Made by a program: the position numbers and the translations under genes. A stretch of DNA of 64,000 nt from Gammaproteobacteria bacterium (lineage in GTDB: Bacteria; Pseudomonadota; Gammaproteobacteria; GCA-002705445; GCA-002716945). Below the pieces are notes generated by a model. It saw only the letters and a program-made list of their open reading frames with translations. It made no database searches and was not told the origin of the DNA. Below, in pieces: positions 39,897 to 64,000 of this stretch (its first letter is position 1; each line of letters begins with the position of its first letter). The stretch lies in NCBI GenBank assembly GCA_018667355.1, contig JABIVC010000016.1, positions 1-64,000 of the forward strand, in the 5' to 3' direction.

Positions 39897-40283
39897 TTAT
39901 CTTTTTGAGAATTGTGTAGCTTTTCTAGCTTTTCTAAGGCCTACTTTCTTTCTCTCAACTTTTCTTGCGTCTCTTGTAACAAAACCTTCTCTCCTTAGAA
40001 TTGGCAATAAATCGCTTTGATACTTTATTAGTGCTCTAGTTACTCCATGAACCATGGCCCCTACTTGACCACTTGGTCCACCTCCACAAACACTGATTTT
40101 CAAGTCTACCTTATTTTCTAATTCTGATTTTTGTAATGGTGCCATTAAATATGACTTTAAGGCCTTTGATTGAACAAAATTGTCTACGTCACGAGAGTTG
40201 ATTGTTATCAAACCGGTCCCTTCGTTTAAGTAGACACGTGCTGTAGATGTTTTTCTTCTTCCTGTTCCGTATGTTTTATGCAT
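39897..40283 (-). CDS. rpsI: 30S ribosomal protein S9
   Basis: S9 sits in the head of the small subunit, with its basic tail reaching the P site. The 128-aa protein has GTGRRKTSTARV at the N-terminus, GGGPSGQVGAMVHGVTRALI, and the tail DARKVERKKVGLRKARKATQFSKR. The C-terminal KR expected of S9 is intact. It follows rplM by 1 bp, the universal rplM-rpsI operon. Confidence 0.98.
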   Translation of the reverse strand: MHKTYGTGRRKTSTARVYLNEGTGLITINSRDVDNFVQSKALKSYLMAPLQKSELENKVDLKISVCGGGPSGQVGAMVHGVTRALIKYQSDLLPILRREGFVTRDARKVERKKVGLRKARKATQFSKR

Positions 40284-44940: not shown

Positions 44941-46415
44941 GCTTTTCTATTCCTTAAGTTTTTATATGCTTGTACGATAGCCCTGCCTTTGCTCATAGTT
45001 TCTTCCCATTCTAATTCTGCAATAGAATCGTTCACTATTCCAGCCCCACACTGTATATTAAGTCTTCCATCTTTAATAACGCATGTCCTAATAGCTATAG
45101 CTGTATCCATATTACCATTCCAGCCTAAATAACCAATGGCGCCCGCATAAATACCTCTTTTAATTGGTTCTAACTCATAAATGATATTAATAGCTCTTAT
45201 CTTTGGTGCACCTGACACTGTGCCCGCAGGAAAAGTTGCTTTTAGTACATCCATCATCCCAAGAGCATCCGAAATATTACCTGTTACATTTGAAACCATG
45301 TGCATGACATGAGAATATTTTTCTATAATCATTTTATGAGTCAACTTAATAGAACCAATCTGAGATACTTTGCCAGCATCATTTCTACCAAGATCAATAA
45401 GCATTAGATGTTCTGCTTTTTCCTTGGGATCATCTTTTAATTCTTTTTCAAGAATAATATCCTCGTCAAGGGTCTTACCTCTTGGTCTTGTCCCAGCTAT
45501 TGGTCTAACAGTGATCTGCTCATCTTCTAAGCGCACTAAGATTTCTGGGGAAGAACCTACGATATAATAATCACCCATGTTTAGATAATACATATATGGG
45601 GAAGGATTAAGGTCACGTAGTTCCCTATAAAAGTCTAAAGGTTCATTACTGAATTCCATTGACATTCTTTGAGAAAGAACAACCTGCATAACATCTCCAT
45701 CTATAATAAATTTTTTTATTTTACTAACAGATGAGATAAAATCATCTTTTTCAAAATGATACCTAATATTTAAATCATTAGCTCCATCATTAGATAGCTC
45801 ATGATTTCTACTTGTAATTTCAATATCTTCAGACAATGATTTTTCCAATCTTTCTATTTTTTCTTGAGATTTAATAAAACTATCTAAGTTATTATCTGCA
45901 TATACTATAATATGAATCTGATTATTAATTTTATCGAAAACTAGGAATTCCTTTGACACAATAAGGCAAATATCAGGTGTATCCATAGTATCTTCTTGGC
46001 TACTAGGCTTAATAGCTTGTTCAAAGTATTGAACTGTATCAAACCCAAAATAACCCACTAGCCCACCCTGGAACTGTGGGAGATCTGGATTACTTAAAAC
46101 TTTAAATTTCTTTTTAAAGTCCTCTATCCAACCAATTGGGTTATCTGTTTCAACTTCCTCTGCTAATACATCAGAAACAAAATATTTTATTTTATTATTT
46201 TTTAACTCAATATATTCTTTTGATGGCAGGCCTATAATTGTATATCTACTCCAATCTTTCTTACCCTCCAAAGATTCAAAAAGGTATGATTTTGGCATAT
46301 TCGATAGTTTTTGATAAACATCAATAGGATTTAGACCATTATTATTTAATGTTGATTTTAGAGGTATCAAATTATAACCTTGTTCAATATGCTTTTTGAA
46401 GTCTTGCTCTATCAT
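44937..46415 (-). CDS. trpE: anthranilate synthase component I
   Basis: TrpE converts chorismate and ammonia to anthranilate. The 492-aa protein has the N-terminal feedback domain (NLIPL..., YLFESLEG) and the catalytic region with [20 protein letters not shown] and [14 protein letters not shown], ending [12 protein letters not shown] and IQCGAGIV. The start is ATG, 16 bp after rpe. No attenuator peptide is visible in that gap. Confidence 0.96.
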
Positions 46416-55836: not shown

Positions 55837-56391
55837 TCAGCTTCTCCATTTAATTGAACAGCCAATGCTTGGTGTCTGTTCCAGTGGGCCTTTACCAGTT
55901 CTAGAAATCAAAAACATTGCTTTAAAAAGGTCGCTTTGATTTGGATTATTTGATGCTTCCCGCCCTCTATCATCAAATCTGCCACGGTATTGTAACTCAA
56001 GATTAGCATTATAACCAAAGAAATCAGGTGTACATACCGAGTTGTATTTTTTAGCTACTGATTGATCAGTATCAATGAGGTATGGAAAACCAAAACCGTT
56101 CTTTTTTGAAACTACTTTCATGTTATCAAATGAATCATCAGGAAAAGATATAAAATCGTTTGGGTTTATGGCAACACAACCAATCCCCTTCATAGCCAAA
56201 ACATCAGTTTCTACAACCAATTTTTCCAAAATAACTTTAACATACGGACAATGGTTGCAAATAAACATCACCAGCAATCCTTTAGGGCCAGCACAATTTT
56301 CCAGACTCCAGGTTTTATCATCTGTCCCTTTCAGGCTAAAATCATAGGCTTTTTGGTTGAAATCACATACTGGAGTAGATAATTCTGTCAT
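55837..56391 (-). CDS. thioredoxin-fold (AhpC/TSA-like) redoxin
   Basis: A 184-aa thioredoxin-fold protein with CNHCPYV (about residues 45-51) at the redox position, and the downstream GFPYLIDTDQSVAKKY and VCTPDFFGY typical of this family. A thiol peroxidase-like or reductase role is likely but unproven. It has no signal peptide, so it is cytoplasmic. It lies just upstream of tkt on the same strand. Confidence 0.85.
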   Translation of the reverse strand: MTELSTPVCDFNQKAYDFSLKGTDDKTWSLENCAGPKGLLVMFICNHCPYVKVILEKLVVETDVLAMKGIGCVAINPNDFISFPDDSFDNMKVVSKKNGFGFPYLIDTDQSVAKKYNSVCTPDFFGYNANLELQYRGRFDDRGREASNNPNQSDLFKAMFLISRTGKGPLEQTPSIGCSIKWRS

Positions 56392-62376: not shown

Positions 62377-62631
62377 ATGATAAATGTACGAGCATTGGCT
62401 TTAACTACTGGAATTTTTGGGGCTTTAACCATGTTTTTTCTTGCATGGTGGTTAATATTAATTGGAGATACACAAGGGCCACAAATTATATTTGAAAGAA
62501 TCTATCCAGGTTTTACTATTACTCCAATGGGTAGCCTCATAGGTGCGTTTTGGGGATTTATAGACTGGGGAATTGCTGGTGCTATTTTTGCCTGGATATA
62601 TAATTGGCTTAACTGCTATTTTAAAAAATAA
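62377..62631 (+). CDS. small membrane protein of a family often labelled holin-like
   Basis: An 84-aa protein with two helices (about 8-32 and 51-76) and the glycine-rich GSLIGAFWGFIDWGIAGAIFAWIYNW. Such proteins are often called bacteriophage holin in databases, but they also occur away from phages. There is no phage gene in this window. A strong AGGAGG lies 6 bp before the ATG. Its place just ahead of the nor genes is the only hint at a role. Confidence 0.75.
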   Translation: MINVRALALTTGIFGALTMFFLAWWLILIGDTQGPQIIFERIYPGFTITPMGSLIGAFWGFIDWGIAGAIFAWIYNWLNCYFKK

Positions 62632-62660
62632 TTCTGTTTTATGGGGAATAATTGGCTTTA

Positions 62661-62674
62661 TTGACACAAATCAA
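62661..62674 (+). promoter_or_regulatory. FNR/DNR-type binding site upstream of the nor genes
   Basis: TTGAC-ACAA-ATCAA matches the FNR/DNR/NNR consensus TTGAT-N4-ATCAA at nine of ten fixed positions. It is centred at 62667.5, some 34 bp before a TATTAT -10 box. That is close to the class II activator position (about -41.5 from the start of transcription). It lies inside the overlong ORF start at 62652, so it also argues for the ATG at 62742. Confidence 0.7.
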
Positions 62675-62698
62675 TGCTTTGGAAAAAAATGATGCGCA

Positions 62699-62704
62699 TA
62701 TTAT
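62699..62704 (+). promoter_or_regulatory. -10 box of the nor promoter
   Basis: TATTAT matches TATAAT at five of six bases and lies in the right place relative to the FNR-type site. No -35 element is expected at a class II activated promoter. Transcription would start near 62711, about 30 bp before the ATG of orf104. Confidence 0.5.
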
Positions 62705-62741
62705 ATTTAATAGGAAATTATCATTGAACGGAGTACATCTG

Positions 62742-63056
62742 ATGTCTTTAAATGAGATGATATTATCTAGTATATCAGCTGGATTTATTGTGATTTTTGC
62801 CGCAGGCTATGCTGTCTTTTATGCATTAAGTAAAATAAAAGAAAATCAAGGATTTTTGTATCTTGGCCATATGTGTTTTGGTTGTTTGATAATTTCCACA
62901 ATATTTTTAATCAATTTATTAAATCTCTCAGGAAGGTGGGAGGTCATTATGCTAGTAATGCTTCTCGGCTATTGGGCTATACCTAAAATGATTTGGTATC
63001 TGAGTGTTGAAGTTAACAATAAAATAATTGGTAAAGAGGAAAATAAAAATAAGTGA
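62742..63056 (+). CDS. uncharacterised three-helix membrane protein, first gene of the nor operon
   Basis: The product is 104 aa from the ATG at 62742, which has GGAG 8 bp upstream. The track's longer start at 62652 would run through the FNR-type site and is rejected. Three hydrophobic helices (about 11-31, 42-62, 67-85) precede a charged lysine-rich tail (GKEENKNK). I do not recognise a named family. It overlaps norC by 4 bp (GTGA), so it is probably translated with norCB. A role in assembly or stability of nitric oxide reductase is a guess from context. Confidence 0.75.
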   Translation: MSLNEMILSSISAGFIVIFAAGYAVFYALSKIKENQGFLYLGHMCFGCLIISTIFLINLLNLSGRWEVIMLVMLLGYWAIPKMIWYLSVEVNNKIIGKEENKNK

Positions 63057-63652
63057 TAAAAAAAGACAAAATTGTTTGGTGGGCCTCAGAAAATTTTTGG
63101 AAAAAATCAGCTATATTTGTAACTGGGTCGATGATTTTAGTTCTAGTACTTCTAACTTTTGATACGATCAATAAAATAACAGCTGGTTCCAAAAGAGTTC
63201 CTGCATACACAGTCATCAATAATCAGATTGACTATAAATACAATAAAACAAGAAATATGTTTGAACCGGTAATTGGCTCTGAGTCTCCTCTATTTGGAAA
63301 TATGCTAACTGCAGAGGAAGCAGAAAATCTCATAAATCTTGGTAAGTTAACGATTCAGGCTAAAAACTGTATGAATTGTCATACGTTGCTAGGCAACGGT
63401 GCTTACTACGCTCCAGATTTAACTAAAGCTTGGTTAGATCCAGGTTGGGGTGCGAAATCTGTCAGAGAGACATTGATGCTAAATTTCCTAATGGACCCTG
63501 AAAACAATGCAAGGACGTTTGGAACGAATAGAAAAATGCCAAATCTAGGACTCACAGAAGCTGAAGCCAAATCAATCATTGCATATTTGAAATGGATGTC
63601 ATCAATTGACACCAATGGCTTTCCTACTAATTTCCAGACAATAAAACAATGA
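63053..63652 (+). CDS. norC: nitric oxide reductase subunit C
   Basis: NorC is the membrane-anchored cytochrome c that passes electrons to NorB for reduction of NO to N2O. The 199-aa protein has one N-terminal anchor helix (about 19-37) and a class I haem domain with CMNCH at residues 106-110. GNGAYYAPDLTKAW, NARTFGTNRKMPN (Met ligand) and IIAYLKWM are family-specific. It starts with GTG inside the previous stop and overlaps norB by 4 bp. Confidence 0.95.
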   Translation: MIKKDKIVWWASENFWKKSAIFVTGSMILVLVLLTFDTINKITAGSKRVPAYTVINNQIDYKYNKTRNMFEPVIGSESPLFGNMLTAEEAENLINLGKLTIQAKNCMNCHTLLGNGAYYAPDLTKAWLDPGWGAKSVRETLMLNFLMDPENNARTFGTNRKMPNLGLTEAEAKSIIAYLKWMSSIDTNGFPTNFQTIKQ

Positions 63653-64000
63653 TTAACCTGCACGCTCTTAATACGATACATTTGAATTCGGGTCAAAAAA
63701 TCGCAATAAAATATTTTTCTATGGCTGTTGTAATATTTGTGGTTCAGATTGTTTTTGGTATATTAGCAGGCATACAATTTAACAATCCTGAATTTCTCTA
63801 CCAAATCATAGATTTTAATGTGAATCGTATGGTGCACATAAATGCCATGATTATTTGGTTATTATATGGTTTTATTGGGTCAGTTTATTGGTTGGTTGAA
63901 GACGAGGCTAAAACAGAATTGGTCGGTAAAAAACTAGCAAATTTTGGTTTTTGGGTCTTAACTATTGCTGTATTGATTGTAGTTCTTGTGTTCTTATTTA
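63649..64000 (+). CDS. norB: nitric oxide reductase subunit B, N-terminal part
   Basis: NorB is the haem-copper-oxidase-like catalytic subunit, with haem b, haem b3 and non-haem iron. Only the first 117 codons lie in the window. They read QKIAIKYFSMAVVIFVVQIVFG (helix 1) and NVNRMVHINAMIIWLLYGF (helix 2, with a haem-ligand His), then VYWLVEDEAKTELVG. All match NorB of the cNor type. No quinol-oxidising N-terminal extension is present, which agrees with a separate norC. The gene runs off the right edge; the ORF track omits it. Confidence 0.93.
   Translation, partial: MINLHALNTIHLNSGQKIAIKYFSMAVVIFVVQIVFGILAGIQFNNPEFLYQIIDFNVNRMVHINAMIIWLLYGFIGSVYWLVEDEAKTELVGKKLANFGFWVLTIAVLIVVLVFLF

Follow-up and report, generated by a model that had tools for sequence, protein, structure and literature searches.

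A NorH homologue encoded ahead of norC and norB in a gammaproteobacterial genome: probable third subunit of a NorQD-independent nitric oxide reductase

Two genes of a nitric oxide reductase, norC and norB, lie at the end of the window (the whole 64,000-nt stretch of DNA analysed), and a small gene lies directly ahead of them. What is its product, and what does it do for the enzyme? An earlier note had described a 104-aa three-helix gene heading an overlapped run (GTGA, then ATGA) that ends in norB. This arrangement was confirmed, with the small gene at 62742-63056 on the forward strand. The features of the locus are as follows.

62596..62741, forward strand: promoter region of a block common to MAG SP3089, 88% identical over 137 bp.
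62661..62674, forward strand: FNR/DNR-like inverted repeat TTGACACAAATCAA, 68 nt upstream of the norH start codon in what is presumed to be the promoter.
62742..63056, forward strand: norH, 104-aa protein with three TM helices and a Shine-Dalgarno GGAG, homologous to Thermus NorH, the third subunit of NorCBH-type nitric oxide reductase.
63053..63652, forward strand: norC, membrane-anchored cytochrome c subunit with a GTG start, a CxxCH heme site (Cytochrom_C Pfam match), and an additional periplasmic stretch of about 40 residues; its identity to classical NorC is under 38%.
63649..64000, running past the window end to contig position 65088, forward strand: start of norB, catalytic subunit of 479 aa, assigned by FeB ligands and identity to Thermus NorB.

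The norH gene starts with ATG, with GGAG 9-12 nt upstream. Its stop overlaps the norC GTG at 63053 ('aaGTGAtaa'), and the norC stop overlaps the norB ATG at 63649 ('caATGAtt'). The ORF is considered real because a 95% identical protein precedes norCB in another genus and some 30 genomes have a homologue next to their nor genes. A longer TTG-start ORF from 62652 is unlikely, as the FNR-like box (62661-62674) would then fall inside the gene, and homologues give the extension no support. Hydropathy gave three TM segments (11-29, 44-62, and 68-86). The AlphaFold model of the single protein, built on a shallow alignment without homologues from other genomes, had three helices (3-30, 36-63, and 66-102) at modest confidence (mean pLDDT 68, pTM 0.41). 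Both predictions describe a small three-helix integral membrane protein. No norQ, norD, norE, or norF was found 3' of norB; by ORF reading, the gene after norB is aldehyde dehydrogenase-like and lies on the opposite strand.

The NorH family had no match in Pfam, NCBIfam, or the PDB, so annotators will leave it hypothetical. The first indication of its identity came from the neighbouring subunits. The best plasmid matches of NorC were by far those of Thermus thermophilus (52% identity across 93% of the NorC length; all others below 38%), and the window NorB was 57% identical to Thermus NorB versus about 40% to classical cNorB. In Thermus, the gene after norC-norB is annotated as hypothetical and encodes 98 aa; its position identifies it as norH. 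PMC5748679 (citing Bricio 2014) and PMC5015936 describe Thermus thermophilus NorH as the third subunit of a heterotrimeric cNOR, NorCBH. Direct alignment of the window protein with Thermus NorH gave E 6e-5 at 23% pairwise identity, a distance over which functional equivalence is an assumption. Fifteen further clusters were obtained from class-level NorC matches, and a small membrane protein adjoined the nor genes in all of them. In a locus search, a profile of the Pseudomonadota proteins found Thermus NorH at its known place after norB with E 4e-11 (next noise 0.64). With hhalign, the Pseudomonadota profile without Thermus matched Thermus NorH with a probability of 97.1 and E 5.8e-11 over 83 columns. 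Two profiles that left out the window protein gave 40 bits for Thermus NorH and 72 and 58 bits for the window protein itself; among 400 shuffled sequences, the top score was 11 bits. By sequence comparison, the window protein is therefore a distant relative of NorH. The earlier statement that it matched no recognised protein is superseded by the profile-profile comparison, and the suggestion that it was lineage-specific does not hold, since the family is present in Gammaproteobacteria, a second Pseudomonadota class, and Deinococcota. The separation from NorE and NorF was borne out: the hhalign probability against one Thioclava sequence of each was below 1%. NorE and NorF resemble NorH in being small nor-operon membrane proteins but differ in position and size and have no profile similarity to it.

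Single-protein NorH searches found only 95% identical copies, and such queries drew nothing homologous from IMG/VR viral contigs or from plasmids. Matches of about 30% to 640-650 aa ORFs in relatives were rejected as compositional; these ORFs are NuoL-like, judged from the genome's own copy.

The distribution of NorH was investigated in two genome samples. Within the window organism's family, NorH was present in 2 of 25 genomes, the window's own and MAG SP3089 of another genus, with 95% identity. In the class sample (369 genomes), NorB of at least 53% identity occurred in 16 genomes, and exactly those 16 had NorH. Classical cNorB (37-42%) occurred in 61 genomes, including one (G039) that also has the NorH type; NorH was found in none of the other 60 and in no genome with only qNOR-like matches. 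As 13 of the 16 NorH genomes had contributed to the NorH profile, the phylum sample is the better test. In that sample, excluding the window's own genome, NorB of at least 68% occurred in 15 genomes and NorH in 15/15, versus 0/48 for genomes with classical-range NorB (34-43%). Fisher's test gave p 8e-15 for this out-of-sample co-occurrence, a value that ignores relatedness, 14 of the 15 genomes being from one family. Both samples together gave NorH in 31/31 genomes with Thermus-type NorB.

Adjacency was equally strict. NorH adjoined norC or norB in 29/29 clusters read, and none was found within about 5 kb of 12 loci chosen for a non-NorH NorB. The gene order was H-C-B in nearly all Pseudomonadota and C-B-H in Thermus and one gammaproteobacterium (G157); the window thus has an operon-like run with Thermus-type norC and norB in the order H-C-B instead of C-B-H. 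In an unrooted NorB tree, 28 NorH-type and 11 classical sequences were split with 100/100 support; a divergent NOR (L101, genome G708) was excluded from the second NorB tree. The expectation that the gene would co-occur with and adjoin norCB was therefore upheld, and no homologue away from nor genes and no match to an unrelated family was seen. One extra NorH fragment in the phylum sample lay at a contig end, where the neighbourhood could not be judged.

These results leave very little room for an unrelated small membrane protein, such as a holin, standing next to norC by chance. That idea draws on a sub-threshold Pfam match to Phage_holin_2 (18.7 bits versus a cut-off of 32), but the score is far below the cut-off and was seen in 2 of 15 family members, and the strict co-occurrence and adjacency in two samples and the homology to NorH argue against it. 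Other weak Pfam matches were below the cut-off and not common to family members.

The window NorB has the FeB ligands H208, E212, H259, and H260 and the active-site Glu (FSALEP), residues conserved in NorH-type and classical NorB alike. The active-site residue is Glu in cNOR versus Gln, Asn, or Asp in eNOR, sNOR, and gNOR (residue table, PMC8756737); the latter three identities are ruled out by the Glu. With three His and one Glu as FeB ligands, the active-site Glu, and a heme c motif in NorC, the catalytic core is that of a cNOR. In NorH-type NorC (L043-L057, L102-L111), about 40 extra periplasmic residues lie between the TM helix and the heme domain, a segment absent from classical NorC.

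This segment bears on one alternative, namely that the main task of NorH is to help electrons reach the enzyme; it might, for instance, hold a donor cytochrome or a quinol-oxidising partner against NorCB in the membrane. Bricio et al. are said to have suggested more efficient electron transport to cNor for NorH, which favours such a role, as does the extra segment. NorH has no cofactor-binding motif and hardly any periplasmic domain, and we consider electron delivery an unlikely main function compared with that of a third subunit.

Paracoccus cNOR cannot acquire its FeB without NorQ and NorD, NorB D220 and E222 are proposed as the NorD docking site, and mutation of position 222 in classical cNOR abolishes activity and lowers FeB (PMC9976466). 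In tblastn searches with Thioclava NorQ and NorD, both were adjacent to 9 of 11 classical clusters and to 0 of 29 NorH-type clusters. The CbbQ/NorQ Pfam family was absent from the window's genome and from G018, G157, G272, and G389; because the assembly of the window genome is a draft in 17 contigs with a completeness of about 94%, gene absences in it are not absolute. Many other NorH-type genomes carry NorQ-family genes, possibly CbbQ, elsewhere, away from the nor cluster. G039 carries both enzyme types, and there NorQ/NorD adjoin the classical norCB alone, whereas NorH adjoins the second norCB alone.

The docking residues followed the same division. With P. denitrificans numbering, D220 and E222 (motif VDRE) were both present in 11/11 classical NorB. 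In NorH-type NorB, position 222 was K, R, or V in 28/28 and never acidic, and position 220 was acidic in 7/28, including the window's, which has Asp at 220 and Arg at 222. Positions were numbered from FeB ligand E198, in a provisional register that depends on the usual 13-residue P. aeruginosa offset; a check supported this offset, but the FeB histidines H253/H254 of PMC9976466 do not fit it. The window enzyme does not have the marks of a classical cNOR with NorQ/NorD maturation, since no NorQ-family gene was found in its genome and the acidic 220/222 pair is incomplete.

The earlier proposal of a Nor assembly or stability factor can be judged against these data. Its core, membership in a nor operon, stood; "subunit" is better supported by the Thermus NorCBH literature, though both roles may apply. 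As a dedicated assembly factor, NorH would help NorB gain FeB or heme in place of NorQ/NorD and then leave. The mutual exclusion of NorH and NorQ/NorD at the cNOR loci read, the separate pairing in G039, and the loss of NorD-docking acids from NorB speak for this; the absence of an ATPase or evident metal-binding motif in NorH and the description of Thermus NorCBH as heterotrimeric in PMC5748679 and PMC5015936 speak against it. Moreover, qNOR is loaded with FeB without NorQD (PMC9976466), so the missing NorQD needs no replacement. A putative NorH replacement of NorQD is attractive but not required, and a dedicated assembly factor seems improbable.

The norH product is therefore best read, with a probability of roughly 0.87, as a small third membrane subunit of a NorQD-independent NorCBH-type cNOR, used here for NO removal. 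In the proposed mechanism, the genes, arranged norH-norC-norB, would be expressed under the FNR/DNR-like box. NorC would pass electrons from a soluble cytochrome c to NorB, which would reduce 2 NO to N2O at its heme b3/FeB site. The three TM helices of NorH may pack beside NorB/NorC, stabilise the complex, and permit FeB loading in the absence of NorQD; by analogy with Thermus, we infer physical binding to NorCB and a stabilising role in the window organism. The NorH-type lineage would attain an active FeB site without the NorQ/NorD machine. NO from outside would be reduced to N2O, giving NO removal in a reduced genome. The window's own genome had no match to nirS, nirK, or nosZ, which suggests detoxification or scavenging, and NO removal is most likely the function of this enzyme.

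The promoter and the three genes have moved together. Homology between the window's contig and MAG SP3089 (L021) covered 62596-65085, from the promoter to the norB end, with 96% identity in the coding part and unrelated flanks, versus 71% in a nuo region of the same two genomes. This indicates horizontal transfer of the promoter and three genes as a unit. The two norH copies differ by 7 synonymous and 5 amino-acid changes. The FNR/DNR-like box is kept as TTGACACAAGTCAA in MAG SP3089, and 0.02 of shuffled upstream regions reached an equal score. The two nor contigs of this MAG overlap and were read as strain duplicates within a single MAG rather than as gene duplication.

Several further observations were made around these loci. 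The window contains four FNR-like boxes (TTGAYNNNNRTCAA; 40198-40211, 46311-46324, 56062-56075, and 62661-62674) versus 0.86 expected, and no shuffle reached four. In MAG SP3089, a stretch of about 220 bp that contains a 63-aa ORF (L021:5765-5988) and is missing from the window separates the conserved box from norH. About 5 kb upstream of norHCB in this MAG, beside ccm-type genes, lies a regulator of the Crp/Fnr type whose N-terminal part has a CxxC cluster (L021:545-1237; by translation reading only). Just upstream of the window's norH promoter, 62377-62631 encodes an 84-aa membrane protein that scores 70.1 bits, with a cut-off of 70, against NCBIfam NF037947 'bacteriophage holin' (holin_4); it is mostly outside the block common to MAG SP3089, and no adjacent phage genes were seen. 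In G155, G295, and G033 (L055:3431-3592, L056:7073-7267, and L057), a conserved membrane protein of about 53-64 aa, 'PSFFGTLNRGPMTLTIFLH', directly follows norB. In G155 and G033 it is followed by cytochrome d1 genes, and it is possibly a further Nor/Nir-linked small protein.

NorH is known from Thermus and, reportedly from the 2014 work of Bricio, from Aquificales. Within the literature compared, which did not include the original description of NorH or a 2024 survey of NORs, several points are apparently new: that NorH occurs in Gammaproteobacteria and in another class of Pseudomonadota, that the gene order can be swapped, that the lineage pattern is strict, and that NorH goes together with missing NorQD and changed docking acids in NorB. 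The family marks a distinct cNOR lineage across Thermus, Gammaproteobacteria, and another Pseudomonadota class. The exclusivity of NorH and NorQ/NorD, together with the replaced docking acids, makes FeB insertion without NorQD directly testable, and norHCB is a compact three-gene NO reductase able to move between genomes. A broader and more doubtful possibility is that there are two cNOR lineages, a classical one with ATP-driven NorQ/NorD docked on acids at a NorB helix end and another in which NorH makes this machine unnecessary, norHCB then being a minimal, mobile, self-sufficient NO reductase.

Two known systems are suitable for comparison. The classical two-subunit cNOR with norQDEF (Pseudomonas aeruginosa 3o0r, Paracoccus denitrificans) has the same NorC/NorB architecture, FeB ligands, and active-site Glu. 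It differs from the window enzyme in NorB (about 40% identity), in having no NorH, in its usually adjacent NorQ/NorD, in its acidic VDRE docking residues, and in a shorter NorC. The Thermus norCBH cluster differs in the site of norH, which is after norB in Thermus and before norC in the window, in an additional N-terminal hydrophobic stretch of NorC, and in adjoining nirS, whereas the window genome had no nirS or nirK match. The two NorH proteins are alike in size (98 versus 104 aa), in three TM helices, and in significant profile-profile homology. The two clusters likewise have no NorQ/NorD beside them, and they share co-directional, overlapping nor genes and the same NorB lineage.
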